Shown one piece after another: positions 2,542-39,596 of a stretch of DNA of 49,407 nucleotides. The notes under the pieces were generated by a model. That model made no database searches. It was not told where the DNA came from and saw nothing but the letters and a program-made list of their open reading frames with translations. Position numbers and translations under genes: made by a program. The DNA comes from Polaromonas sp. (GTDB lineage Bacteria; Pseudomonadota; Gammaproteobacteria; Burkholderiales; Burkholderiaceae_C): assembly GCA_030650875.1 (NCBI GenBank), contig JAUSDK010000091.1, forward strand, positions 1-49,407, written 5' to 3'. The stretch's first letter is position 1. Each line of letters begins with the position of its first letter.

Positions 2542-4188
2542 ATGCCAACCTCCAAAAAACCAAGCCCGACCCCAGCCTCTTCAACGGCGCCTTCCGCCGC
2601 CAAAGCCCCCGCAAAACCTGCCAAAAAGCCTTCTGGCAAGGTGCTCAAGCCTGCGGACTACCTGAAAAAAATCCTCACCGCACGGGTCTATGACGTGGCG
2701 GTGGAGTCAGCGCTGGAGCCGGCCAAGAACCTGAGCCTGCGCCTGAACAACACGGTGCTGCTCAAGCGGGAAGACCAGCAGCCGGTGTTCAGTTTCAAGC
2801 TGCGCGGCGCCTACAACAAGATGGCGCACCTGAGCCCTGCCCAGCTCAGGAAAGGCGTGATTTGCGCCTCGGCCGGTAACCACGCGCAAGGTGTGGCGCT
2901 GAGCGCGCAAAAGCTCGGCACCCGCGCCGTGGTGGTCATGCCCACCACCACGCCACAGCTCAAGATTGACGCGGTGAAAGCCTGGGGCGCCGAAGTGGTG
3001 CTGGCCGGCGACAGCTACTCCGATGCCTATGCCCATTCGGTCGAACTGCAGAAAAAGGAAGGGCTGACCTTTGTCCATCCGTTTGACGACCCGGACGTAA
3101 TTGCCGGCCAGGGCACGATTGCGATGGAAATCCTGCGGCAGCTGCAAACCCTGGGTTCGCGCCGGCTCGACGCGGTGTTTGTGGCGATTGGCGGCGGCGG
3201 CCTGATTGCCGGCGTGGCCAACTACATCAAGGCGGTGCGGCCCGAGATCAAGGTGATTGGCGTGCAGATGAACGACTCCGACGCCATGATGCAGTCGGTG
3301 GCCGCCAAAAAGCGCGTGACGCTGCCCGACGTGGGTCTGTTTTCAGACGGCACGGCGGTCAAGCTGGTGGGCGAGGAAACCTTTCGCATCAGCCGCGCGC
3401 TGGTCGACGAGTTCATGACGGTGGACACCGATGCGGTCTGCGCGGCCATCAAGGATGTGTTTGTCGACACCCGCAGCATCGTGGAGCCGGCCGGCGCGCT
3501 GGCCGTGGCAGCGATCAAGCAGTATGTGGCCACGCACAAGACCAAAGGCGAGACCTACGCGGCCATTTTGTGCGGTGCCAACATGAACTTCGACCGCCTG
3601 CGCTTTGTCGCCGAGCGGGCCGAAGTGGGCGAGGAGCGCGAGGCGCTGTTTGCCGTCACGATTCCCGAGGCGCGCGGCAGCTTCCGGCGGTTTTGCGCGC
3701 TGATCGGCGAGTTGCCGGGCGCGCCGCGCAGCGTGACCGAGTTCAACTACCGCATCAGCGACGATGCCAAAGCCCACGTATTTGTGGGCCTGACCACCTC
3801 GGCCAAGGGCGAAAGCAGCAAGATTGCCGCCATCTTTTCCCGCCACGGCTTTGAGGCGCTGGACCTGACGCATGACGAGCTGGCCAAGGAACACATACGC
3901 CATATGGTGGGCGGCCACAGCGCGCTGTCGGGCGGGGAGCGGGTGCTGCGCTTCATCTTTCCCGAGCGGCCAGGCGCGCTGCTGAAGTTTTTGAGCCTGA
4001 TGCGGCCAGGGTGGAACATTTCCTTGTTCCATTACCGTAATCAGGGCGCCGACTACGGCCGTATTCTGGTGGGACTGCAGGTGCCCGAGGCCGACAACCA
4101 GGCCTTCAAGTCATTTCTGGACACGCTGGGCTACCCCCATGTCGAAGAAACCGACAACCCGGTGTACCGGCTGTTTCTTCAAAAATAA
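2542..4188 (+). CDS. ilvA: Threonine dehydratase, biosynthetic
   Basis: PLP enzyme converting L-threonine to 2-oxobutanoate and ammonia, the first committed step of isoleucine synthesis, in the cytoplasm. In the 548-residue product, K86 in FSFKLRGAYNK is the Schiff-base lysine, the SAGNHAQG loop binds substrate and the glycine loop IGGGGLIAG (about 215-223) holds the PLP phosphate. Residues from about 375 on form two ACT-like regulatory domains (RGSFRRFCALIGELPG, then GGERVLRFIFPERPGALLKF), as in isoleucine-inhibited, full-length enzymes. The first 35 residues are an Ala/Pro/Lys-rich extension not found in E. coli IlvA. The ATG at 2542 is preferred; in-frame starts at 2518 and 2521 exist. Confidence 0.93.
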   Translation: MPTSKKPSPTPASSTAPSAAKAPAKPAKKPSGKVLKPADYLKKILTARVYDVAVESALEPAKNLSLRLNNTVLLKREDQQPVFSFKLRGAYNKMAHLSPAQLRKGVICASAGNHAQGVALSAQKLGTRAVVVMPTTTPQLKIDAVKAWGAEVVLAGDSYSDAYAHSVELQKKEGLTFVHPFDDPDVIAGQGTIAMEILRQLQTLGSRRLDAVFVAIGGGGLIAGVANYIKAVRPEIKVIGVQMNDSDAMMQSVAAKKRVTLPDVGLFSDGTAVKLVGEETFRISRALVDEFMTVDTDAVCAAIKDVFVDTRSIVEPAGALAVAAIKQYVATHKTKGETYAAILCGANMNFDRLRFVAERAEVGEEREALFAVTIPEARGSFRRFCALIGELPGAPRSVTEFNYRISDDAKAHVFVGLTTSAKGESSKIAAIFSRHGFEALDLTHDELAKEHIRHMVGGHSALSGGERVLRFIFPERPGALLKFLSLMRPGWNISLFHYRNQGADYGRILVGLQVPEADNQAFKSFLDTLGYPHVEETDNPVYRLFLQK

Positions 4189-14224: not shown

Positions 14225-15460
14225 ATGCCCGCCTATTCCTTTGAAGCACTGACCGCCGAGGGCGCCACCCGTAAAGGCGTGATCGAGGCTGACAACGCCC
14301 GGGCCGCGCGCGGCCTGCTGCGGACGCAGGCACTGGTGCCGCTGGCAGTCGAGCCGGTGGGCGCGGCGGGCGGCGGCGCCGGGGCCAAGCCTTCGGGCTG
14401 GTCCACCAATGTCTGGAACGCGCGCGTGTTCAGCAGCGCGGCACTGGCGATCTGGACGCGCCAGATCGCCGGACTGGTGACATCAGGCCTGCCGCTGGAA
14501 CGGGCGCTGACGGCCCTGGCCGACGAGGCCGACAAGGAAAACCAGCGCAACCTGGTGGCCGCGCTGCGCGCCGAAGTCAACGGCGGCGCGACCTTTGCCA
14601 CGGCGCTGGCGCAGTACCCGCGCGAATTCCCCAGCACCTACTGCGCCGTGGTGGGCGCGGGCGAGCACAGCGGCAACCTCGGGCTGGTGCTGGAACGCCT
14701 GGCCGACGACCTGGAGCAAAGCCAGGAACTCAAGGCCCAGCTGGTGGGCGCCGCGCTCTACCCGGCCATCGTGACGCTGGTGGCGGTGGTGATCGTGATG
14801 TTTTTGCTCGGCTACGTAGTGCCGCAGGTGGCCGAGGTGTTTGCCGGCAGCAAACGCGCGCTGCCAATGCTGACCATCATCATGCTGGGCCTGGGCAACT
14901 TTGTGAAAACCCAGGGCTGGCTGATCCTGCTCGCGATTATTTTGATGACGATTGGCGCCCGTATTGCCTGGACCAGCGCGGCTTTTCGTGAAAAGTTCGA
15001 TGCCTTCTGGCTGACGCTGCCGATTCTCGGCAAGCTCGCACGCGGCTACAACGCCGCGCGTTTTGCCGGCACGCTGGCCATGCTGGCGGCGGCCGGCGTG
15101 CCGATTTTGAAGGCGCTGCAGGCCGCAGCCGAGACGCTGTCCAACCGCGCCATGCGCACCGATGCAATGGACGCGCTGATCATGGTGCGCGAAGGCGCGC
15201 CGCTGGCGTCGGCGCTGGCGCAGAAAAAACGCTTTCCGGGCCTGCTCAGCATGTTTGCCCGGCTGGGCGAGCAAACCGGTCAGCTGCCGGTGATGCTGGA
15301 CCGCGCCGCGCGCCAGCTCAGCACCGAAGTGCAGCGCCGCGCGCTGCAGCTGGCCACGCTGCTGGAGCCGCTGCTGATCGTGGCGATGGGCGTGGTCGTG
15401 ATGCTGATCGTGCTGGCCGTGCTGCTGCCCATCATCCAGCTCAACCAACTCGCCAAGTAA
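14225..15460 (+). CDS. gspF: Type II secretion inner-membrane protein F
   Basis: Polytopic protein of the assembly platform, contacting GspE and the pseudopilus base. The 411-residue product has two repeated GspF domains (WTRQIAGLVTSGLPLERALT and KLARGYNAARFAGTLAMLAA) and three membrane helices (about 172-195, 221-240 and 377-400). The ATG at 14225 fits the MPAYSFEAL start of the family; an in-frame TTG at 14219 is less likely. The last gene of the run; a palindromic repeat follows. Confidence 0.94.
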   Translation: MPAYSFEALTAEGATRKGVIEADNARAARGLLRTQALVPLAVEPVGAAGGGAGAKPSGWSTNVWNARVFSSAALAIWTRQIAGLVTSGLPLERALTALADEADKENQRNLVAALRAEVNGGATFATALAQYPREFPSTYCAVVGAGEHSGNLGLVLERLADDLEQSQELKAQLVGAALYPAIVTLVAVVIVMFLLGYVVPQVAEVFAGSKRALPMLTIIMLGLGNFVKTQGWLILLAIILMTIGARIAWTSAAFREKFDAFWLTLPILGKLARGYNAARFAGTLAMLAAAGVPILKALQAAAETLSNRAMRTDAMDALIMVREGAPLASALAQKKRFPGLLSMFARLGEQTGQLPVMLDRAARQLSTEVQRRALQLATLLEPLLIVAMGVVVMLIVLAVLLPIIQLNQLAK

Positions 15461-29940: not shown

Positions 29941-29981
29941 ATGACAAAGATCAAGCCGTTCGTAGCCTGTCACCCTAGCAT
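29941..29981 (+). promoter_or_regulatory. Weak FNR/Anr-like box and -10 before the PDZ gene
   Basis: ATGAC-AAAG-ATCAA (29941-29954) matches the FNR consensus in the right half and three of five bases of the left. TAGCAT (29976-29981) would be the -10, giving a start near 29988 and a box centre at about -40.5, the same spacing as the better boxes in this region. Confidence 0.35.
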
Positions 29982-30030
29982 GGTGTCTGGAGGCCTTGGC
30001 CTTGCGCCCCCTTTTTCGAAAGGACGTTCC

Positions 30031-30444
30031 ATGACACGCAAGAAATTGATCCTGGCGCTGATCGCCGCAGGCTTGGCGGTGGCGGCAACGTCTGTCGCGC
30101 TCACCATCTACCCCTCCTTCAGGCTGGGCGGGAACGACCCGGCCAGTACATCGGCCAGCGCCAGCACAGCCGCAAAACCCCGGCCCCTGGGCCTCACACT
30201 GCGCCACCTCACCCAGAGCGAAAAAGCCAGGGCCGCACGACAAGGCGGCCTGCTCATCCAGGGCGTGACCGGCGCTGCGGCACGCGCCGGACTGGTGCCG
30301 GGCGAGGTCCTGCTGGCCATCAACGGTGTGGCCGTCCAATCGGTGGAACAGGTGGCGAGCGCCATGAACAAAAACCCCGACGGTGTGGAACTGCTGATCC
30401 TGCGCCATGGCGAACAGGTCTTTGTGCCGGTGGCGCCGGGTTGA
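30031..30444 (+). CDS. PDZ-domain protein, membrane-anchored or exported
   Basis: A 137-residue protein beginning with a signal-anchor (MTRKKLILALIAAGLAVAAT), a low-complexity Ser/Ala linker (about 35-50) and a single PDZ domain (about 52-137): GLTLRHLTQSEKAR, GGLLIQGVTGAAARAGLVPG, EVLLAINGVAVQSVEQVASA. It looks like the second PDZ domain of DegP/DegQ proteases standing alone, without a protease domain, so it may bind unfolded periplasmic C-termini. Start chosen at 30031 because AAAGGA precedes it; upstream in-frame codons lack a signal. Converges on the DHH gene. Confidence 0.8.
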   Translation: MTRKKLILALIAAGLAVAATSVALTIYPSFRLGGNDPASTSASASTAAKPRPLGLTLRHLTQSEKARAARQGGLLIQGVTGAAARAGLVPGEVLLAINGVAVQSVEQVASAMNKNPDGVELLILRHGEQVFVPVAPG

Positions 30445-30506
30445 TGCAGCCAGCCTGAACGCAGCGCCAGGGTTCGGCCCCTGAAACACCCGGATCGGCA
30501 AGGCGT

Positions 30507-31466
30507 TCAAGAACTCCCCCAGCGGGCCCGGGAAAACGCATCAACGAAGCGCGCCAGCTGGTGCGCCGGCAGATGGTCTATGCCCGCTGCGCCGGCCCGG
30601 CCGTCGCCACCAAAACACCGGCAAAACGCCGCCGCCCCGCGAGGGGAACGCAGCGGCGCACGCACGCTGACCGACAAGTCGCCTTGGGCCGTGGGCGTCA
30701 GCACGGCGTGCGCGCGCAGTGGCTCCGCCAACGCCAGGCGATTGCCCAGGCTGCCGGACACGCGCCGGCTCCAGGGCGCATCGGGCAACAGGTAAACGCC
30801 CACCCGGGCGTCCTGAAAATGAGGCTGCAGCGCTTGTGCCCGCCGCAGGTCCTGCTGCCGCAGCGCGTCCAGTTCCTGGCCCAGCACCTCGCACGCCAGA
30901 AAACCCAGCGGGTCCGGGTAACGCACCAGTTTTTCATACAGCTGCGCGGGGCCGATGTAGACATCCTGCGCACTGTCGCCATAGGCGTTGTAGTTGATCG
31001 CCTCCCCCAGCGACTGCAAACGCCTGCGGTCCTCCGACGTCAAGCCCAGACCCACGGCCAGGCGCCCGGCCACTTCCGCCAGGTTGTCGCCGAAAGCCCC
31101 GACCACCGCCCAGGCCCGGTACTTTCCGCCCAGGTGGCGGTCCACCAGCAAGCTGGTGCAGGTGTCGCTGGCCAGGTCGATATGCGTCTGTAGCAGCGGA
31201 TGCACCGGGATTTCGCCCGCCTCGTGGTGGTCAAAGTAGCGCACCGACACGCCCGCGTCCAGCAGGCGCAGCAGCGGCAGGCGGTTGCGCCGCATCGACA
31301 CATCGCACACCAGCACGCTGTCACCGCGAACGGCCTGGACACGGCCGAGCAGTTCAATGTCGCGTTTGAGTCCGGTGACCAAACAGGCGGCCTGCGGATC
31401 ATGCAGCCGCCACTGCACGACGGCGCACAGGCCGTCGGCATCCCCATTGCATACGTCGATGTTCAT
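30507..31466 (-). CDS. DHH-family phosphoesterase
   Basis: A 319-residue protein with the four DHH metal motifs: NGDADGLCAVVQW (motif I), VCDVS (II), YFDHHEAGEIP (III, the Asp-His-His) and GAFGDN (IV), plus a C-terminal DHHA1-like glycine motif FGGDGRAGAAGIDHLPA. Such enzymes hydrolyse short oligonucleotides, pAp, cyclic dinucleotides or polyphosphate with Mn or Mg; the exact substrate cannot be read from the sequence. It lies 49 bases behind the Lon-like reading frame on the same strand and is probably cotranscribed with it from the FNR-type promoter. Confidence 0.78.
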   Translation of the reverse strand: MNIDVCNGDADGLCAVVQWRLHDPQAACLVTGLKRDIELLGRVQAVRGDSVLVCDVSMRRNRLPLLRLLDAGVSVRYFDHHEAGEIPVHPLLQTHIDLASDTCTSLLVDRHLGGKYRAWAVVGAFGDNLAEVAGRLAVGLGLTSEDRRRLQSLGEAINYNAYGDSAQDVYIGPAQLYEKLVRYPDPLGFLACEVLGQELDALRQQDLRRAQALQPHFQDARVGVYLLPDAPWSRRVSGSLGNRLALAEPLRAHAVLTPTAQGDLSVSVRAPLRSPRGAAAFCRCFGGDGRAGAAGIDHLPAHQLARFVDAFSRARWGSS

Positions 31467-31515
31467 GGGCGCTCAGATGACGCCCGGGGGCGCGCAAGAC
31501 CGCGTGCAGAAAAAA

Positions 31516-33851
31516 TTACTCCGCATCCTTCTGCACTTCGGGTTTTATGTCGGGCGGTCGCATGAATTTTTTCTGGATCCCGGCCAGATCAGCCATCCGC
31601 GCGGCAACCTTGTGGTTGATACTGCCCTCCGGATATCGGCCGCTGGCATCGGCATGGCCCGCGGGCACACCGGTGAGCAAGCCGGTGGCCTGGTCCACAT
31701 GGTCCACGGCATAAATATGAAACTGTCCGGCTTCGGCGGCAGCGACCACGTCCCGGCGCAGCATCAGGTGTTTGACATTGGCGGCAGGAATCAACATGCC
31801 CTGCTCCCCGCTCAATCCGCGCGCCAGGCAGATGTCGAAAAAACCCTCGATTTTTTCATTGACGGCCCCAATCGCCTGCACATGCCCCAGCTGATTCACC
31901 GAGCCCGTGACCGCCAGCGACTGCTTGACAGGCACATTCGACAAGTTCGACAGCAAAGCGCACAACTCCGCCAGCGAAGCGCTGTCGCCCTCGACCTGAC
32001 CGTAGGACTGCTCGAACACCAGGCTGGCGGACAGCGCCAGCGGCTGGTTTCTCGCATAGCGTGCGGCCAGAAAGGAGGACAGGATCAGCACGCCCTTGGA
32101 ATGAATGGCGCCGGAGAGCTTCACCTCGCGCTCGATGTTGAGCATTTCCCCGTCGCCCAGCCGGCTGGTGGCCGTGATCCGGGTCGGCTGGGCGAAGGCG
32201 AAACTGCCCAGCTCGATCACGGAAAGACCGTTAACCTGCCCCGCCACCGCCCCTTGCGTGTCGATCAGCAAGGTGCCGCGCAAAATGGCTTCGTGCAACT
32301 GGCCCCTCAAACGGTCCTGCCGGTGAATCTGGGTGTCGATTGCCTGCTGCACATGGCGCGCCACCACCGCCGCATGGCCCCCCTCGCGCGCCCAGTAGTC
32401 CGCTTCCTGGAGCAGGTCGGACACGCTGGCCATGTGCGTGGACAGTCTTTGCGCATCGCCGACCAGCCGCGCGCTGTGGTCGATCACCCTGGCCACCGCA
32501 CCGCGATCGAAGGGCAACAAATCTTCCTTGCGGGTCAGCGTTCCAATCAGGCGCGCATAGAGCAGATGCGTGTCGGCATTGCGTTCAATGCGGTCCTCGA
32601 AGTCCGCCGCCACCTTGAACAGCTCGCCAAAATCCGGGTCGTACTGCTGCAGCAGGTAGTAGACCAGCCGGTCGCCAAACAGGATGTTCTTGGCGCGCAG
32701 GGGGATCGGTTCTGGCTCCAGCGACACGGTGCTCACCAGGCTGTACATCTGGCCCTGCGACTCGATGCGAATCTCGCGCGCTTGCAAAGCGCGTTTCAGG
32801 CCGTCCCAGGCAAAGGGCTGCACCAGTACCTTGCGCACGTCCAGCAGCAGGTAGCCACCGTTGGCCCGGTGCAGCGCGCCGGCCTGCTTGCCGTTGGTCA
32901 CCAGCACATCACCTGGTAGCGGTGAAAGGTCTCGCGGGTGACGACCGTCAGGCCAGAGAGGCTGGTGGGCTCCTCCTGCCTGAGAAAGTCGTCCGCATGT
33001 TCGACCATGTCCTGCTGCACGATGTCGAGGTATTTCCGGATTGCAGGCAGGTCGGAAAAACGTGCGCGCATCTCGTCCATCACGCGCCTGACCGACGACA
33101 GCGTGGTGTCCCGGTTGAGCGGCTTGACCCGTTCGCTGCGCTCTTTGCCCCACTGCGGCAAATGGCCCAGGATTTTCTCCAGGCGTTCCTGCAAACCGGC
33201 AATGGCGCTGGCTATCTTTTCTTTTTCCTCTTCCGGCAGCTTGGCGAATTCGTCCGGTGGAATCACTTCCTGATTGCGGGTCGGGGCAAAGGCGAACCCG
33301 CTCGGCGTGCGCAGCAGGACGATTCCCTGCTTCCCGGCGTCAGCGCCCAGGGCCTTGAACGCGTCTTCCTGCCGTTTGCTGAACTCGTCCTGGATGGCGC
33401 CTGCCTTGGCGCGGTATTCATCGCTCTCGAACAATGCGGGGATGGCGCTGCGCAGATAGTCGACCAGTTGCGCCATGTGGCGGCACAGCTCTGCCCCCTT
33501 GCCCGACGGCAACCTGATCGCCTGGGGTTTATGGGGTTGGGTGAAATTGTTGAGATAGCACCAGTCGGCCGGCTCAGGCTCGGCCTCCACTTTTTTTGCG
33601 AGGAACTGCTGGACCAGGCTGCGTTTGCCCATGCCTGAGGGGCCCGGCACATAAATGTTGTACCCGTCATGGCCGATGCCGGTGCCGAATCGCACGGCGT
33701 CCATGGCCCGTACCTGGCCCATCAGCTCGGTCAGGCTCTCGAGCTCAGCCGTGGTCTGAAATCCGAATTGTTCAGGGTCACATGCATGGCGAAGCTGCTG
33801 CGGCGCAAGTGGCATTGAAAGGGGCAGCGAAAGCGGTTCGGACACTGTCAT
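31516..33851 (-). pseudogene. Lon-like (LonB-type) ATP-dependent protease gene, frameshifted with internal deletion
   Basis: Two overlapping frames together make one AAA-Lon protease. The first (ATG 33851 to stop 32898) has YNIYVPGPSGMGKRSLVQ (P-loop) and the helical insert of this family. It breaks after FHRYQV. The second frame resumes at LVTNGKQAGALHRANGGYLL and carries the protease domain, with the catalytic Ser in VEGDSASLAELCALLS and Lys in AIGAVNEKIEGFF. Family members have about 40 further residues between these points (NVLVDN, then EDNPTY and so on, to LVTNF), so a deletion of a non-multiple of three near 32905-32915 explains both the gap and the frame change. The protein, if made, would stop at 317 residues without its protease domain. 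Confidence 0.8.
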
Positions 33852-33897
33852 TTTTGAAGGCTGTTGTGCCCCTTTTTTTGATACCGCCTCGGGTCTG

Positions 33898-33933
33898 GTC
33901 AGAAGGTCGCTGGCAGGCCGGTGGCCTTCTGAC
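33898..33933 (-). other. Hairpin in the leader of the Lon-like gene
   Basis: GTCAGAAGG (33898-33906) is an exact inverted match of CCTTCTGAC (33925-33933), with 18 bases between. It lies in the inferred 5' untranslated region, 47 bases upstream of the start codon. No T tract follows on either strand, so it is more likely a transcript-stability or translation-control structure than a terminator. Confidence 0.45.
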
Positions 33934-33990
33934 GCAAGTTCCCGAAATGGACCGGAAGCATCCAGCGGACTACAGCCGATGAACAGCTCG

Positions 33991-34031
33991 ACTCTAAGAC
34001 GCAGGCGTCCTGGTCGCTTGATGTTTATCAA
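33991..34031 (-). promoter_or_regulatory. FNR/Anr/Dnr box and promoter of the Lon-like/DHH unit
   Basis: CTTGATGTTTATCAAG holds TTGATGTTTATCAA (34018-34031), an exact match to the FNR-family consensus TTGAT-N4-ATCAA. On the minus strand TAGAGT (33996 down to 33991) can be the -10, which puts the start near 33984 and the box centre at about -40.5, the class II activator position. It lies between the flavin reductase-like gene and the Lon-like gene, both on the minus strand. Confidence 0.78.
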
Positions 34032-34084
34032 GCCCCACGCCGTGCCAGGTGCCGGCGTCATGCCGTTGGGACTGCACAACCGGC

Positions 34085-34621
34085 TTATTTCATTTTTGAA
34101 GGCAAGCGGATCGTCTCGCCGGCCACCATGAACTGGCCCTTGCCTTGGTGGTGCAGGGTCTGCGGCTGTTTCTGCGCCGGGTCAATCCACGCCTTGAGCA
34201 CCTCAAGAATGAAGAAGTTGTAGGGGGCCACCATCCGGACATCAGCCACCCGGCATTCCAGATTCGCGTAGCACTCGCCGATGAGGGGCGCCTTCACGCA
34301 CTGCGCGGCCACGGGTGTCAGGCCGAAGGCCTCGAACTTGTCCAGCGTGCGGCCCGAGTGGTTCCCGCAGGCCACCACTTTTTCCGCCAGCCCGGCCGTG
34401 GGAATATTGATCACGCACTCTTTGGTCGCCTTCAGGATGCCAAAGGTGTAGTTCCGGTTGCTGATCACGCAGCCCACCAGCGGTGGCTCGAATTCCAGCA
34501 TGGTGTGCCACGACAGGGGCATGATGTTGGCCCGCCCCTTGTTGGCAGTGGTGACCATCACCACCGGCCCGGGCTCGAGCAGGCCATAAACCCGGGACAG
34601 GGGAAAGTTTCTCTTGGCCAC
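34085..34621 (-). CDS. Flavin reductase-like FMN-binding protein
   Basis: A 178-residue protein of the flavin reductase-like (DIM6/NTAB) family: RVYGLLEPGPVVMVTTANKG, ANIMPLSWHTMLEFEPPLVG and CVISNRNYTFGILKATKECV form the split-barrel FMN site. These proteins either reduce free flavin with NAD(P)H or hold FMN for their own reaction. GTG start at 34621 with a strong AAGGAGG (34631-34637) nine bases before it. It follows the FAD oxidoreductase by 33 bases in the same direction and may supply reduced flavin to that enzyme; this is inference. Confidence 0.85.
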   Translation of the reverse strand: MAKRNFPLSRVYGLLEPGPVVMVTTANKGRANIMPLSWHTMLEFEPPLVGCVISNRNYTFGILKATKECVINIPTAGLAEKVVACGNHSGRTLDKFEAFGLTPVAAQCVKAPLIGECYANLECRVADVRMVAPYNFFILEVLKAWIDPAQKQPQTLHHQGKGQFMVAGETIRLPSKMK

Positions 34622-34654
34622 CGCGCGACACCTCCTTGCAACGGTTGCCCCGGA

Positions 34655-36010
34655 TCAGGCGCGCAACACACATTTCTCATAAAGCCCGAGCATTCGCCCG
34701 CCCGGGTCGTACCTGGCTTTCAGGGCCTGATAGCGCGCCATGGCGTAGGTCTGCGCAAACGCATCCGGGGTAAAAAAGCTGTCCGAATAAAGCGACTTGA
34801 TACCGCCCAGGCGCAGTACTTCGTGCTCGACCAGCCGGTTGAAATGGCCAGGCGCATGCGCAACGGTGCTCTCCACCACATCCCAGAAACCGAAGTTGAC
34901 ATACAGGCTGCCGGGCGCCAGCGGATACAGCGTGAACTCCGCGCCCGGCGCAGGCCCGCGCACCGGACAGATCCAGACCGGCAGGATACCAATTTCGCGC
35001 ATCAGAAAATCCAGGAAAGCGGGCGCGCTGGCGATCGGGATGTCCACGTCCTGGATCACCGATTCGGTAAAGCGGCCACGCAAGCGGGCCAGGCGGCGCG
35101 TCAGGCCCCAGCGGGCGTTCCAGCGCATGACACGGGTGTAGGTGCGGGAATTGAGCCGGCCTTTTCCCAGCAGGCGGCGCACCAGCGGATGTTGCGCATA
35201 CAGGTTTTTGGAGCACCAGAACCAGTCGGTGTCCCAGCGCCAGATATAGTCCTGCACCGTCAGGTAGTCCACCGGCTTGTCCAGCAGGGAGCGGTAGTAA
35301 ATGTTCTTGAAGCTATAGTCGCTGAGCCAGGGTGCGGCATCCACAAAGCAGGCCCGGTTGATGACCTGCTGCTGCGGCCCGAACACCACGCCATCGACAA
35401 AGTCGGCGCTTCCCTGGCTTTGCGTGACCAGGTCGCCAAAAAATCGGCCGGGCAATTCGTGCCGCACATGCTCCACCCGTACATAGGGTTTGACCGGCAA
35501 GGTCCGCAAGCGCAGACGCAGCGCGTAGCCCAGCGTGCCGTAGGAATTGGGAAACCCGAAGAACAGGTCGCGGTGCGCGTTGTCGGGTGTGCAGTGCAAC
35601 ACCTCGCCATCCGGCAGCAGCACGTCGAGTTCCAGCAGGGTGTCATGCACCAGCCCGTGGCGAAACGACGTGGCCTCGATGCCCACGCCCGCCGCCGCGC
35701 CGCCCACGGTGATGGTTTTGAGCTGCGGCACCACCGCCGGCATGACGCCGCGCGGCAGCGTTTGCGCAACGAGCTGCTCATAGGTCGTCAGGCCTTCCAC
35801 ATCGACCCAGCCGGCGGCGGTGTCGATGTCCAGCACATGGCAAAAGCCGCTCAGGTCCAGCCGGTGCTTGGCGCCTTCGTGGCGGTCGCGAAACAGGTTG
35901 GAACTGCGCTTGCCCAGGCCGAGCGGCGCCGCGCTGCCGGCCGCGCCGGCGTGCAGGGCGGCAGCCAGTTCGGCGCGGCGCCTGGCATGGGCAAAGCCGT
36001 CAGGCGTCAT
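34655..36010 (-). CDS. FAD-binding oxidoreductase, DIM/DWF1 (TmsA/BfaA) type
   Basis: A 451-residue flavoenzyme of the vanillyl-alcohol-oxidase fold. The FAD domain has SSNLFR, DIDTAAGWVDVEGLTTYEQL, VVPQLKTITVGGAAAGVGIE and ELDVLLPDGEVLHCTP; the cap domain follows, ending with the RYDPGGRMLGLYEKCV segment. The branch is that of FAD/FMN dehydrogenases related to Delta24-sterol reductase. Its start overlaps the stop of the Cfa-type methyltransferase gene by 11 bases. This pairing is that of actinobacterial tmsB-tmsA (Rv3720-Rv3719 type), where the methyltransferase adds a methylene to oleate in phospholipid and the FAD enzyme reduces it to 10-methylstearate. The function here is inferred from that pairing. 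Confidence 0.82.
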   Translation of the reverse strand: MTPDGFAHARRRAELAAALHAGAAGSAAPLGLGKRSSNLFRDRHEGAKHRLDLSGFCHVLDIDTAAGWVDVEGLTTYEQLVAQTLPRGVMPAVVPQLKTITVGGAAAGVGIEATSFRHGLVHDTLLELDVLLPDGEVLHCTPDNAHRDLFFGFPNSYGTLGYALRLRLRTLPVKPYVRVEHVRHELPGRFFGDLVTQSQGSADFVDGVVFGPQQQVINRACFVDAAPWLSDYSFKNIYYRSLLDKPVDYLTVQDYIWRWDTDWFWCSKNLYAQHPLVRRLLGKGRLNSRTYTRVMRWNARWGLTRRLARLRGRFTESVIQDVDIPIASAPAFLDFLMREIGILPVWICPVRGPAPGAEFTLYPLAPGSLYVNFGFWDVVESTVAHAPGHFNRLVEHEVLRLGGIKSLYSDSFFTPDAFAQTYAMARYQALKARYDPGGRMLGLYEKCVLRA

Positions 36011-37214
36011 ACAGGTGCCCCCGGCTCATGGGGTAGCTGGTGCGGGTCACATTGCCCTTGCCAAAGACGATCTGGAACAAATGCGTGTAGCCCGCAGGTG
36101 AGCGAAACATCTCGGCGCAGCCCACCAGGTAAGTGCGCCAGACCCGGCGAAAGCGCTCGTCAAAGCGCTCCGGGCTGAGGGCCTGGATGGCGCTCCACTG
36201 CAACTCGAACCGCCGCGCCCACTCGTCCAGCGTCAGGGCGTAATGGCGGCGCAGGTTCTCGATGTCGAGCACCTCCAGCCCGCAGCGCTCCATCTCGACG
36301 ATGACCTCGGACAAGCCGGGAATCCAGCCGCCGGGAAAGACGTGCTTGCGGATGAACAGGTCGGTCTCGCGCGGCCCGATATGGCCAATGAAATGCAGCA
36401 TGCCCAGCCCGCCGGGCTTGAGCAGGTCGGCATGCGCCTGGACCACCGCGGCCAATTGGTCACGCCCGGCATGTTCCAGAACGCCAATCGACACCACCTT
36501 GTCATAGGGGCCATCGGCTACGCGGAAATCGGCCTCGCGCACACTGAGCTTGCCGTCCAGTCCCCGGCGCGTGATTTCCGCGCGCAACCAGTCCACCTGC
36601 TCGGTGGTGGTGTTGATGCCGGTGCCGATCGCGCCCAGCGTTTCCCAGGCACGGAACATGAAACCGCCAAAGCCGCAGCCGACGTCCACAAAGCGCTCGC
36701 CGCGTGCAAGCTGTATTTTTCGGCAGACATGGTCGATCTTGCGCTGCTGCGCCTGCTCCAGCGTCTGCGTGCCTTCGGGCCAGTAGCCGCAGGTGTACAT
36801 CATCAGCGGGTCGTCGAGCCACAGGCGGTAAAACGCGTCCCCCAGGCCGTAGTGCGCGCGGGCGTTGGCTTTGGCTTGTGCCAGGCTTTGATTGGAATAG
36901 CGCAGTTCATGGAAACCGTTCTCAACGGTGATCAAGGCCTTGCCGTGCGTATCCAGGCCGCTGAGCATGCCGGCGGCCAGTGCCGCGCCAAAATCGCCCT
37001 CGACGTCAACGCTCTGGTCAAAGTACGACTCCAGCAGCCCCATCTGCCCGCGCGTGAAGGCCTGCAGCAGCGCGGCGTCAGAACGTAACAAGACGGTGAA
37101 TGCCGGCGGACCCGTGCCGGCACGGTAGTCGCTGCCGTCCGGCAGCCCGATGGCAAACGGCACGCCGGTGCGGGACTGCAGCGTATCGACAATGTTCTGC
37201 ATGGGTAAAAGCAT
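36000..37214 (-). CDS. Cfa-type SAM-dependent fatty acid methyltransferase
   Basis: A 404-residue member of the cyclopropane-fatty-acid synthase family, acting on unsaturated acyl chains of membrane phospholipids. Landmarks: an N-terminal lipid-binding domain (about 1-110), MMYTCGYWPEGTQTLEQAQQ (active-site Cys of the family), the SAM loop FVDVGCGFGGFMFRAWE, VVSIGVLEHAG, and MLHFIGHIG with the His of the bicarbonate/active site, then PGGWIPGLSE. ATG at 37214 has AGGA upstream; further in-frame ATGs exist 5' of it. First gene of a three-gene unit with the FAD oxidoreductase and flavin reductase-like genes, preceded by two FNR-like boxes. Confidence 0.86.
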   Translation of the reverse strand: MLLPMQNIVDTLQSRTGVPFAIGLPDGSDYRAGTGPPAFTVLLRSDAALLQAFTRGQMGLLESYFDQSVDVEGDFGAALAAGMLSGLDTHGKALITVENGFHELRYSNQSLAQAKANARAHYGLGDAFYRLWLDDPLMMYTCGYWPEGTQTLEQAQQRKIDHVCRKIQLARGERFVDVGCGFGGFMFRAWETLGAIGTGINTTTEQVDWLRAEITRRGLDGKLSVREADFRVADGPYDKVVSIGVLEHAGRDQLAAVVQAHADLLKPGGLGMLHFIGHIGPRETDLFIRKHVFPGGWIPGLSEVIVEMERCGLEVLDIENLRRHYALTLDEWARRFELQWSAIQALSPERFDERFRRVWRTYLVGCAEMFRSPAGYTHLFQIVFGKGNVTRTSYPMSRGHLYDA

Positions 37215-37294
37215 GCGGCGTCCTTCCTGGGGGTGCATGCGCTTCGTGCCTGCCCATCTGGTGCACACATGAGGCGCTGCGGTTCCGTGCCACG

Positions 37295-37364
37295 ATTGAA
37301 CCTGTTCACGCGCCTCCTGGCTTGCGAAAGATCAAGCCACGCGGCGCATCTTGAGAAAAATCAA
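37295..37364 (-). promoter_or_regulatory. Two FNR/Anr-like boxes between the methyltransferase and ligT-type genes
   Basis: TTGAG-AAAA-ATCAA (37351-37364, one mismatch to consensus) and TTGCG-AAAG-ATCAA (37322-37335, two mismatches) are 29 bases apart. On the minus strand TTCAAT (37300 down to 37295) would be a -10 with start near 37288; the proximal box is then centred at -40.5 and the distal at -69.5. The distal box could also serve the divergent gene at 37420, with TCCAAT (37388-37393) as its -10. Confidence 0.65.
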
Positions 37365-37419
37365 GCGGCCGGGCAGCCCCCGTCAAGTCCAATGGGCTGA
37401 TTGAAAGACAGGAATTTTC

Positions 37420-37977
37420 ATGGCTATGGTCCCACCCGCGAACCAGACCGAACCAGGCCTGGATGCCCACGCAGAAACTGCTCGCCTTTTCATCGCCCTG
37501 TGGCCGGGGTCTGATCTGGCCAGCGCGCTGCACGCGCAGTGCGGCATCTGCACCACCGACCCGGGCGCCCGTGTGGTCACGCCGCAAAGGGTCCACCTGA
37601 CGCTGCACTTTTTGGGCGCTGTGCCGCGCCAGACACTGCCCGCGCTGGCGAACGCGCTGCGCGTGCCGTTTCAAGCGTTTGAGCTCCGCTTCAGCCACTG
37701 CGAACAATGGCCGCATGGTCTGCGCGTGGCGGTGCCCGACACGGCGGTGCCGCCACTCATGCGCTTGCACGCAGCGCTGGGCCAGGCGCTGCAAGGCCTG
37801 GGCCTGCCGGTGGAGGAGCGCCCGTTTCGGCCGCACCTCACGCTGGCGCGGCGCGCCACGGCGCCCTTGCCGACACCGGAAGGGCCACCTCTTCGCTGGC
37901 CCGTCAGCGGCTATGTGCTGGTGGAATCGCAGGCGGCGCGGGGCGGCACGTACCGGGTCATGCAGGCGTACAGCTGA
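37420..37977 (+). CDS. thpR: RNA 2',3'-cyclic phosphodiesterase (LigT/ThpR)
   Basis: A 185-residue 2H phosphoesterase with both catalytic motifs: HLTLHFLGAV (first HxT) and FRPHLTLARR (second HxT). Typical members open 2',3'-cyclic phosphate ends of RNA and can join 2'-5' ends in vitro. The first 20 residues (MAMVPPANQTEPGLDAHAET) precede the core ARLFIALWPG and are not conserved, so an internal start is possible but no ATG or GTG offers a better site. It converges on the dehydrogenase gene with 16 bases between stops. Confidence 0.88.
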   Translation: MAMVPPANQTEPGLDAHAETARLFIALWPGSDLASALHAQCGICTTDPGARVVTPQRVHLTLHFLGAVPRQTLPALANALRVPFQAFELRFSHCEQWPHGLRVAVPDTAVPPLMRLHAALGQALQGLGLPVEERPFRPHLTLARRATAPLPTPEGPPLRWPVSGYVLVESQAARGGTYRVMQAYS

Positions 37978-37993
37978 AGCGCTGGCGCGCCGG

Positions 37994-38851
37994 TCAAAGC
38001 CCCAGGGCGTAGCGGTGCGCGCCCTGGCGCAAGCCGGGCAGCTTGCGCACCGCATCCAGCATCACATGCGCCGAGAAGGTGGTGGGGTCATATCGCGCTT
38101 CGAGCAGCAAGCTCTGGTGCGGGCCTTGGACGGCATGGCCGCGGCGGTCCAGCACTGCGCCCAGCCCGTCGTCCTCTTCCATCTCGGAAAGATCCGCCAC
38201 CTGAAACACCTGCGTGACGTCACCGGCGAATAGCGGGTCGGCTGCAATGGCCGCCTGCACCCTGGACAGTTCGGCGCCGGGCTCCAGTTCAACGTATACG
38301 TAATGCGATGCGCCGTTGTCGCTGCGGTACTCACCGGTCAGCGCCCCCTTGACACCCCGAATCCCCGCGACGGCCGCGCTGTGGTGCAGGTGCAGTCCGG
38401 GGTGGCGATGGAAAACGGTGTTTCCACGGGGGATCAGCATCTCGAAGGTATGGCGCAGCAGCGGCAAAACGCCCGGGTCCCAGCCGGCACCGACCACCGC
38501 CGCCACACGGTGGAGGTCGGCCGCTTCGCCCAGCGCGGCGTAGTAGGCCTGCAACGCCTGGCCCTCGAAACAGGCGCATTCCACGACGGGAATGCGGGCC
38601 TGCAGCAGTTCGCGGGCCACGCCCAGCACGGCGTGGGCGGGCACGCACACCAGTGCGGCACGAACGCCCTGCAGTTCCCGTACGTGGGTAGCCACAGGAA
38701 AAAGCCGCAGGCGGCCGGGCAAGGCAGCGGGCGCCCCGGGCTGGCGCACCACACCGGCCAGGGCCAGTTCGCTGTCGCCCACCAGGGTATCGGCGCAGGC
38801 CAGCCCCAAACGACCCAGACCGATCACCGCCACCTGTAGTTTTGTCATCAC
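37994..38851 (-). CDS. Meso-diaminopimelate dehydrogenase-like oxidoreductase
   Basis: A 285-residue protein with an N-terminal NADP-type Rossmann fold (QVAVIGLGRLGLACADTL), a VVECACFEGQALQAYYAALG segment and the stretch AAVVGAGWDPGVLPLLRHTF; the GAGWDPG motif is the hallmark of meso-2,6-diaminopimelate D-dehydrogenase, followed by HHSAAVAGIRGVKGALTGEY. The family member from Corynebacterium is about 320 residues; this one is shorter. Such an enzyme would link tetrahydrodipicolinate and ammonia to diaminopimelate, or act on another D-amino acid. It lies 100 bases downstream of hsp20 on the same strand. Confidence 0.72.
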   Translation of the reverse strand: MMTKLQVAVIGLGRLGLACADTLVGDSELALAGVVRQPGAPAALPGRLRLFPVATHVRELQGVRAALVCVPAHAVLGVARELLQARIPVVECACFEGQALQAYYAALGEAADLHRVAAVVGAGWDPGVLPLLRHTFEMLIPRGNTVFHRHPGLHLHHSAAVAGIRGVKGALTGEYRSDNGASHYVYVELEPGAELSRVQAAIAADPLFAGDVTQVFQVADLSEMEEDDGLGAVLDRRGHAVQGPHQSLLLEARYDPTTFSAHVMLDAVRKLPGLRQGAHRYALGL

Positions 38852-38951
38852 CGCTCCAGTGTTCGGTCCCGAATGTTGTTCAGAGTTTCAAGGCCGGCAC
38901 CTGCACGGGTACAAACCCACCCGTTCGGCCTGCGCAAAGACATGGCCTGAC

Positions 38952-39455
38952 TCAGGACACCGCAATGGCTTTGGCATCGCCGCTGCCCGCCTTGGGCAGG
39001 CGCACCGTGAGCACGCCGTTTTTGCAGCGCGCCACGGCCTTGTCGATGTTGACCTTGCGCGGCAAGGCGATGTCACGCTGAAACGCCCCATAGGCGCGTT
39101 CCCTGACATGGCAGGCGCTGTCATGCGTTTCGCATTCAAAATGCTTTTCGCCGCTCAGATGAAGCACATTTCCCTGCAGGGTGATGCTGCAATCTTCCTT
39201 GTTCATGCCGGGCACGTCGATGCGCACGACGATATCCGTTGGCGTTTCTTCCACTTCCCCGGCCAGCAGGCTCCAGCGCGGAAAGGTGGACAGCGCACTG
39301 ACTTCACCCCGGTCTTCTTCCTTGCGGCGGGAAAAATCCGCGAGGGACTCGCTGCTTCGGCTGAGCCATTCGCACCAGCCTTCAGACATGTTTTTCCAGG
39401 CGAGACGGATCTCGTGGCCCATATTCCTTCCGGCCTGTTTCAAGGAGTTCAGCAT
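38952..39455 (-). CDS. Small heat-shock protein Hsp20
   Basis: ATP-independent holdase chaperone of 167 residues. The alpha-crystallin domain spans about 58-160: TPTDIVVRIDVPGMNKEDCS, ITLQGNVLHLSGEKH, RAYGAFQRDIALPRKVNID and the closing strand NGVLTVRLPKAG; the tail has AIAV in place of the usual Ile-x-Ile anchor. The N-terminal arm is short and rich in Trp and Arg. ATG at 39455 (MLNSLKQAG) is chosen over an upstream in-frame ATG whose residues are not family-like. An FNR-type palindrome, not an obvious heat-shock promoter, lies upstream. Confidence 0.88.
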   Translation of the reverse strand: MLNSLKQAGRNMGHEIRLAWKNMSEGWCEWLSRSSESLADFSRRKEEDRGEVSALSTFPRWSLLAGEVEETPTDIVVRIDVPGMNKEDCSITLQGNVLHLSGEKHFECETHDSACHVRERAYGAFQRDIALPRKVNIDKAVARCKNGVLTVRLPKAGSGDAKAIAVS

Positions 39456-39555
39456 GGTCAGCTTTCTGAAAATGAGTTGTTCCGCCGCCCGCCGCAGTGA
39501 TTTGCCAGCGCACATCACATTGCGACCAGACAAGCTGCAGCTTCAGCACAAACTA

Positions 39556-39596
39556 AATGTAGGACGCCCGGTAAATAGCGGCTTGAGATTTCTCAA
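39556..39596 (-). promoter_or_regulatory. FNR/Anr-like box and promoter of hsp20
   Basis: CTTGAGATTTCTCAAG holds the perfect palindrome TTGAG-ATTT-CTCAA (39583-39596), one mismatch per half to the FNR consensus. On the minus strand TACATT (39561 down to 39556) is a fair -10; the start would be near 39549 and the box centre at -40.5. The leader is then about 94 bases. Confidence 0.65.

Follow-up and report, generated by a model that had tools for sequence, protein, structure and literature searches.

The stretch of DNA analysed here, called the window throughout, comprises 49,407 bases of the environmental betaproteobacterium Polaromonas sp. (assembly GCA_030650875.1, contig JAUSDK010000091.1, positions 1-49,407, forward strand), whose assembly amounts to 3.23 Mb in 291 contigs and is 87.55% complete. 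The pieces at 29,941-39,596 hold a group of stress genes, hereafter the island, with boxes in front of them that resemble the sites of FNR/ANR-type regulators. On the minus strand, a gene for a Lon-like protease (31516-33851), with LonC helical, AAA_32, LonB lid and Lon_C domains, is followed by the second gene of its unit (30507-31466), encoding a DHH-type protein whose motif was read by eye and which has no match in Pfam or NCBIfam. The adjacent putative operon on the same strand, which the original prediction had described simply as a methyltransferase operon, is indeed a methyltransferase unit and can now be described more precisely: it starts with a CFA-synthase-type methyltransferase (36000-37214; PF02353, with matches to NF040703 and NF008686 below their cut-offs), followed by an FAD-binding oxidase (34655-36010; PF01565) and a flavin-reductase-like protein (34085-34621; PF01613). 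Further genes of the minus strand encode the Hsp20 small heat-shock protein (38952-39455; PF00011) and, behind it, a diaminopimelate-dehydrogenase-like protein (37994-38851; TIGR01921, below its cut-off). The plus strand bears a gene for a small PDZ-domain protein with an N-terminal hydrophobic stretch (30031-30444; PF17820) and thpR, for an RNA 2',3'-cyclic phosphodiesterase (37420-37977; TIGR02258, above its cut-off). The Lon-like gene is box-bearing, as had been claimed, with the correction that a frame change near 32.9 kb splits it in this assembly, while it is open in a relative (L179, 827 aa); the break is either an assembly error or a real loss. We infer the roles of all these products from their families.

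In FNR/ANR class II promoters, known from E. coli and P. aeruginosa, a 14-bp palindrome lies about 41 bp before the transcription start and the -10 element 21-22 bp downstream of it. The five island boxes pointed out in the original prediction are all in place, agreeing with TTGATN4ATCAA at ten of ten positions (34018), nine (37351) or eight (29941, 37322 and 39583). The Lon-like/DHH unit has the box TTGATAAACATCAA (34018-34031, minus strand), 21 bp before the -10-like hexamer TAGAGT (33991-33996, minus strand), and hsp20 has TTGAGAAATCTCAA (39583-39596, minus strand), 21 bp before TACATT (39556-39561, minus strand), both hexamers coming from an unguided spacing scan. The same distance separates the CFA-proximal box TTGATCTTTCGCAA (37322-37335, minus strand) from TTCAAT (37295-37300, minus strand), a hexamer indicated by the scan and by its conservation in five genomes, and the weak box ATGACAAAGATCAA (29941-29954, plus strand) from TAGCAT (29976-29981) before the PDZ gene. 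A second box between the CFA gene and thpR (37351-37364) was assigned to no strand. When the start of the hexamer is placed at -12, the box centre falls at -40.5. The claim that every unit has a -10 element at this distance holds for the Lon-like, hsp20, CFA-proximal and PDZ boxes, all with a spacer of 21 bp; box 37351 does not have this spacing. With a spacer that is mostly 21 rather than 22 bp, the island promoters otherwise show no clear difference from the class II arrangement.

The window contains 14 sites with at most two mismatches to TTGATN4ATCAA, against a mean of 5.72 (sd 2.24, largest 11) in 100 dinucleotide shuffles. In the unguided scan, all 14 sites were read in both directions, giving 28 tests, and every hexamer at spacers of 0-45 bp was scored. 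The best -10 lay at exactly 21 bp in four of the 28 tests, which were those of the Lon-like, hsp20, CFA and PDZ promoters, all facing their genes, and each of the four hexamers is within the top 0.3% of window hexamers. Four composites of box and -10 with spacers of 21-22 bp stand in the window, whereas 200 first-order Markov shuffles gave 0.13 on average and never more than 2; the score cut was placed post hoc, slightly beneath the weakest-scoring of these four promoters. The boxes are thus confirmed as real and as more than chance occurrences, the PDZ promoter being the weakest of the four.

In relatives of the same genus, box and hexamer are for the most part retained amid changes in gene order and flanking sequence. 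The island CFA gene is present at 87% identity or more in five of 87 genus genomes, our own included, and the island hsp20 at 69% or more in four. Across the five CFA promoters, 13 of 14 box columns and all six hexamer columns are invariant, together with 11 of 21 in the spacer, 2 of 30 in the upstream flank and 10 of 33 in the downstream flank. In the hsp20 promoters of the window, L180 and L181, 13 of 14 box, 8 of 21 spacer and 4 of 6 hexamer columns are kept, with the hexamer at 21 bp in all three. The Lon-like promoter of L179 has an aligned box of 9/10 and TAGAGT at 21 bp. A second box upstream of the CFA gene lies 91-98 bp from the proximal one in four relatives and 29 bp from it in the window (37322-37364), from which we conclude that about 65 bp have gone from the window between the two. 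The 19-kb stretch of genome G016 (L180) gave no Lon-like match; it has radical SAM, phosphoribosyltransferase and BON genes, and boxes of 8/10 at 14766 and 17167. One frame of that stretch, ORF274, was dropped as a gene, as it overlaps the phosphoribosyltransferase match on the opposite strand. In the stretch of genome G035 (L182) the gene order differs again, and the boxes at 3054 and 3394 are likewise followed by a -10 after 21 bp. Matches to the PDZ protein beyond genome G077 are at most 49% identical, start at residue 29 or later and lie mostly in longer frames, which we take to be HtrA-type proteases.

Paralogues of the island genes served as controls. All five island CFA orthologues combine a box of 8/10 or better with a -10 at 20-23 bp. 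Among 24 CFA paralogues, seven have a box of at least 8/10, five of them at 9/10, and none a -10 at 20-23 bp; when the contig-edge region L162 is included, the counts are eight and six of 25, with one -10. Likewise, box and -10 are found before three of four island Hsp20 orthologues, and, of 16 other Hsp20 genes, four have a box and one a -10. From these counts, a box by itself does not mark out the island, and the combination of box and -10 is rarer elsewhere. Upstream of several CFA paralogues (L159, L164, L169, L175 and L177) there are boxes such as TTGATACATGTCAA with no -10 at the usual distance, perhaps reflecting another mode of control.

The same combination is rare in the genome as a whole. 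The assembly has 12 exact TTGATN4ATCAA sites, including 34018, and 132 sites with at most one mismatch (reversed control, 7). The shorter pattern TTGAN6TCAA occurs 79 times (control, 25) and its extension CTTGAN6TCAAG, noticed only once the sites had been seen, 13 times (control, 5); both sets include 34018, 37351 and 39583, all within 5.6 kb. Asked whether the island sites rank near the top of the genome by score alone, 34018 does and the other boxes do not, and ranking by box score was rejected as a test, given the 132 sites and the two mismatches in three of the island boxes. By contrast with its reversed control, which gave none, the composite TTGAN6TCAA-N21/22-TANNNT is found 13 times in 3.23 Mb, and two of these are the Lon-like and hsp20 promoters. 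Others precede ccoN (cbb3 oxidase), hemerythrin, an anaerobic benzoate regulator, a sulphur transporter, a LysR gene and a Kelch protein, as well as a TmcC/HmcE-like membrane protein (below cut-off) and a BigR-like ArsR-family regulator (below the BigR cut-off). For the composites on contigs C150, C256 and C285, the nearest downstream frames tested have no Pfam match, and some of the 13 sit within other open frames, where they may be chance occurrences. The composite on C285 (G000:C285:12728-12769, L284) has a box identical to that of hsp20, TTGAGAAATCTCAA, with a -10-like hexamer at 22 bp, and its nearest downstream frame tested, of 102 aa, is without a Pfam match. Elsewhere, the gap between a flavohaemoglobin-like gene and a gene for a NorR-like regulator contains an exact box, TTGATTTATATCAA (L011, 1501-1514), which has a -10-like hexamer 20 bp away on either side. 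As positive controls in the same genome, ccoN and hemN have boxes with TACGCT and CATAGT, respectively, at 22 bp.

The association of box and Lon-like gene extends to other genera. We examined about 450 bp upstream of 87 Lon-like genes, not limited to intergenic DNA, a set that includes the window, one genome fetched twice and two distant paralogues. A box of at least 9/10 is found in 14 of these regions and one of at least 8/10 in 33, against 0-2 and 4-16, respectively, for 19 permuted half-sites, and 0-3 and 10-21 for ten other gaps. Once the window, L179 and the duplicate had been dropped, 13 boxes of at least 9/10 were left outside our own lineage; their mean -10 score peaks at a spacer of 21 bp, then 22, of the 46 spacers, and the best hexamer is at 21 or 22 bp in seven of the 13. 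The CFA gene, in turn, has homologues of 69-70% on three Variovorax replicons. On the two that come with gene tables, which are incomplete, it lies among universal stress protein (Usp), zinc alcohol dehydrogenase and PRC-barrel genes, and the V. paradoxus locus additionally has genes for an FAD oxidase, hemerythrin, a polyhydroxyalkanoate (PHA) synthase and a DHH homologue (54% over 196 aa to the island protein). The V. paradoxus stretch has nine sites of at least 8/10, two of them overlapping a gene end and none wholly within an annotated gene, with no 8/10 site on the CFA side. In V. boronicumulans there are seven such sites, of which one overlaps a gene end and one lies inside a 55-aa hypothetical gene (L250, site 4126). 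On the CFA side, V. boronicumulans and PDNC026 each have a box with a -10, at 21 and 22 bp, respectively. A plasmid of Cupriavidus sp. USMAHM13 joins genes for NAPRT (nicotinate salvage), a Lon-like protein, Hsp20, alanine dehydrogenase and diaminopimelate dehydrogenase, the last a 44% homologue of the island protein near hsp20; boxes with a -10 at 21 bp stand 75 bp before hsp20 and 423 bp before the diaminopimelate dehydrogenase gene.

A suitable regulator is encoded in the genome. It gave eight matches to PF13545, four of which are CRP/FNR-type proteins by reading of their translations, and only one of the four has N-terminal cysteines, in the arrangement C-x2-C-x5-C. This Fnr protein (P0013; 241.8 bits, against a cut-off of 228 for NF008365) adjoins hemN, ccoG and ccoP; its closest solved relatives are the FNR-type regulators 9qll and the 5cvr/5e44 group, and its fourth cysteine aligns with FNR structures. 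By its sequence it bears the cysteines of a [4Fe-4S] cluster, the cluster itself being predicted.

Taken together, the spacing, the conservation, the enrichment at Lon-like genes of other genera, the Variovorax and Cupriavidus loci, the Fnr protein and the ccoN and hemN boxes support the earlier idea of an FNR-type low-oxygen stress island. We consider class II activation by an FNR/ANR-type protein to be the probable explanation (at about 0.85), in which binding, oxygen response, transcription starts, operon structure and product functions are predicted from sequence. In the absence of oxygen, the [4Fe-4S] dimer of such a sensor, of either of the paralogues discussed below, would bind TTGA-N6-TCAA centred near -40.5 and touch RNA polymerase around the -35 position. 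This would turn on hsp20 with the dehydrogenase-like gene, the Lon-like protease with the DHH protein, the membrane-lipid methyltransferase operon with its two flavin enzymes and, perhaps, the PDZ protein gene, whose products would protect proteins and membrane in low-oxygen survival.

Several observations weigh against this explanation. Three of the five island boxes, with two mismatches, are ordinary by box score alone, and the -10 weights used in the scans are those of E. coli. Read in either direction, box 37351 is without a -10 at 20-22 bp, with only TCCAAT, at 23 bp, towards thpR, for which it may be a promoter, and box 37322 read towards thpR has an equally good hexamer at 20 bp. The Lon-like open frame of the window extends through its own box at 34018; in L179 the first start codon of this frame is the ATG matching 33851. 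As for the relatives, the hsp20 box of L179 is degenerate (7/10, spacer 22), a hexamer at 19 bp scores slightly above the one at 21 bp in L181, and L179 is the single close relative in which the PDZ promoter could be compared. CFA paralogues, too, can be preceded by a box of 9/10 or better, without the -10 spacing; 73 of the 87 Lon-like regions show no box this good, and none of 8/10 stands close before the Cupriavidus Lon-like gene. Even at ccoN and hemN, a better-scoring hexamer lies at a distance other than 22 bp.

A narrower variant, compatible with FNR/ANR control in general, is that a second FNR paralogue, as Burkholderia Anr2, or another member of the superfamily acts on the island in place of the hemN-linked Fnr, and this we regard as a tentative possibility. 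A second FNR protein with N-terminal cysteines is encoded in all four island-bearing relatives (G077, G016, G070 and G035); the island promoters mostly use a spacer of 21 bp, whereas the boxes of ccoN and hemN, beside the first Fnr, each have a hexamer at 22 bp; and B. cenocepacia has two FNR/ANR proteins, of which BCAM0049 rises in micro-oxia, according to the available part of the report (PMC3759415). The two Burkholderia regulators are named Anr1 and Anr2 in the available part of another report (PMC11742914). On the other hand, the paralogue was not found in the present genome, at 87.55% completeness, the recognition helices of both paralogues are nearly the same, and Lon-like promoters elsewhere use spacers of 21 and 22 bp alike. 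The paralogue is also far commoner than the island: it occurs, at 64% identity or more, in 33 of the 87 genus genomes, against five for the island CFA gene, so that a specific linkage between the two is not supported. In G077 the second paralogue (L238, G077:C150, 6784-7563) has Usp, BON, Hsp20, ADH and PhaC genes within 10 kb, a neighbourhood that recalls, by analogy, the Burkholderia low-oxygen locus. One might go further and suppose that the two paralogues split the response by geometry, with the hemN-linked Fnr serving respiratory genes (22 bp) and the second paralogue serving stress islands through CTTGA-N6-TCAAG (21 bp), and that the LonC/LonB-type protease is a widespread FNR-controlled low-oxygen protease; we consider this scheme unlikely.

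Control by sigma-32, whose promoters follow the pattern CTTGAA-N12-17-CCCCAT, would make the locus a heat-shock island with the CTTGA arm of the box as its -35 element. Chaperone and protease genes and the CTTGA left arm would fit such a view, as would the RpoH control of AsrA, a P. aeruginosa Lon-like protease, described in the available part of the report (PMC9866376). Nevertheless, of eight promoter regions, seven have best pairs of only 7-9 of 12 (7, 8, 9 and 9 in the four of the window), against shuffle means of 8.0-8.4; the eighth, that of the L180 CFA gene, reaches 11 of 12 but well downstream of the box. As both palindrome arms are conserved as well, sigma-32 control was rejected as very improbable. 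That the boxes are chance sites, singled out by a search for -10s at the expected distance, could draw on the two-mismatch boxes and on the way in which the -10s were first searched for, and is scarcely credible in view of the unguided window tests, the conservation in relatives and the enrichment in other genera.

Under FNR/ANR-type control, the island has relatives among known systems. The low-oxygen locus of B. cenocepacia, in the available part of its description (PMC6127331), encodes six universal stress proteins together with a heat-shock protein and a BON protein, and CFA synthase, small heat-shock proteins, proteases and Usp are raised in micro-oxia, as given in the accessible part of a second study (PMC3759415). 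As far as those parts go, the island shares with this locus Hsp20, a flavin/nitro-reductase-type gene and a suspected Anr-type regulator; BON genes lie in the relatives' stretches L180 and L182. Unlike it, the window has a CFA-type operon, a Lon-like/DHH unit and a diaminopimelate-dehydrogenase-like gene, and searches with Usp (six queries, E 1e-4), BON (two queries) and PhaC (one query) gave no match in it; in two Variovorax records, the CFA gene does have Usp genes around it. The proposed resemblance to the Burkholderia locus is consequently one of kind, and the two are akin but distinct. In R. leguminosarum, hsp20 (rlv_1399) is induced by low oxygen via FnrN and an anaerobox, as stated in the available part of the report (PMC11784457), and thus shares with the island a small heat-shock gene and the TTGA-N6-TCAA anaerobox. 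This is an alphaproteobacterium, for which the same part of that report describes a single hsp20 gene with two boxes and no island (PMC11784457).

The Lon-like protein itself has the LonC helical, AAA_32, LonB lid and Lon protease domains in common with the LonC-type protease (TTC1975 peptidase, PDB 4fwd), which we take to be from Meiothermus, and with archaeal LonB. The part matched by 4fwd covers residues 312-743 of 827, and the protein lies far below the TIGR00764 cut-off. A serine and a lysine 43 residues apart, both invariant in our alignment A1, presumably have the catalytic role. In the literature covered, by titles and abstract starts and with subscription papers mostly outside coverage, this gene set is nowhere described as an FNR island.

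All together, since neighbouring stress genes share a promoter layout typical of FNR, they are probably a common set of tools for surviving spells without oxygen. Low-oxygen stress loci, as known in Burkholderia, would thereby extend to another betaproteobacterial lineage with a different cargo, namely a CFA-type operon and a Lon-like protease. As the link between box and Lon-like gene is met again in a minority of genomes from other genera, protein quality control under low oxygen may be commoner than described.

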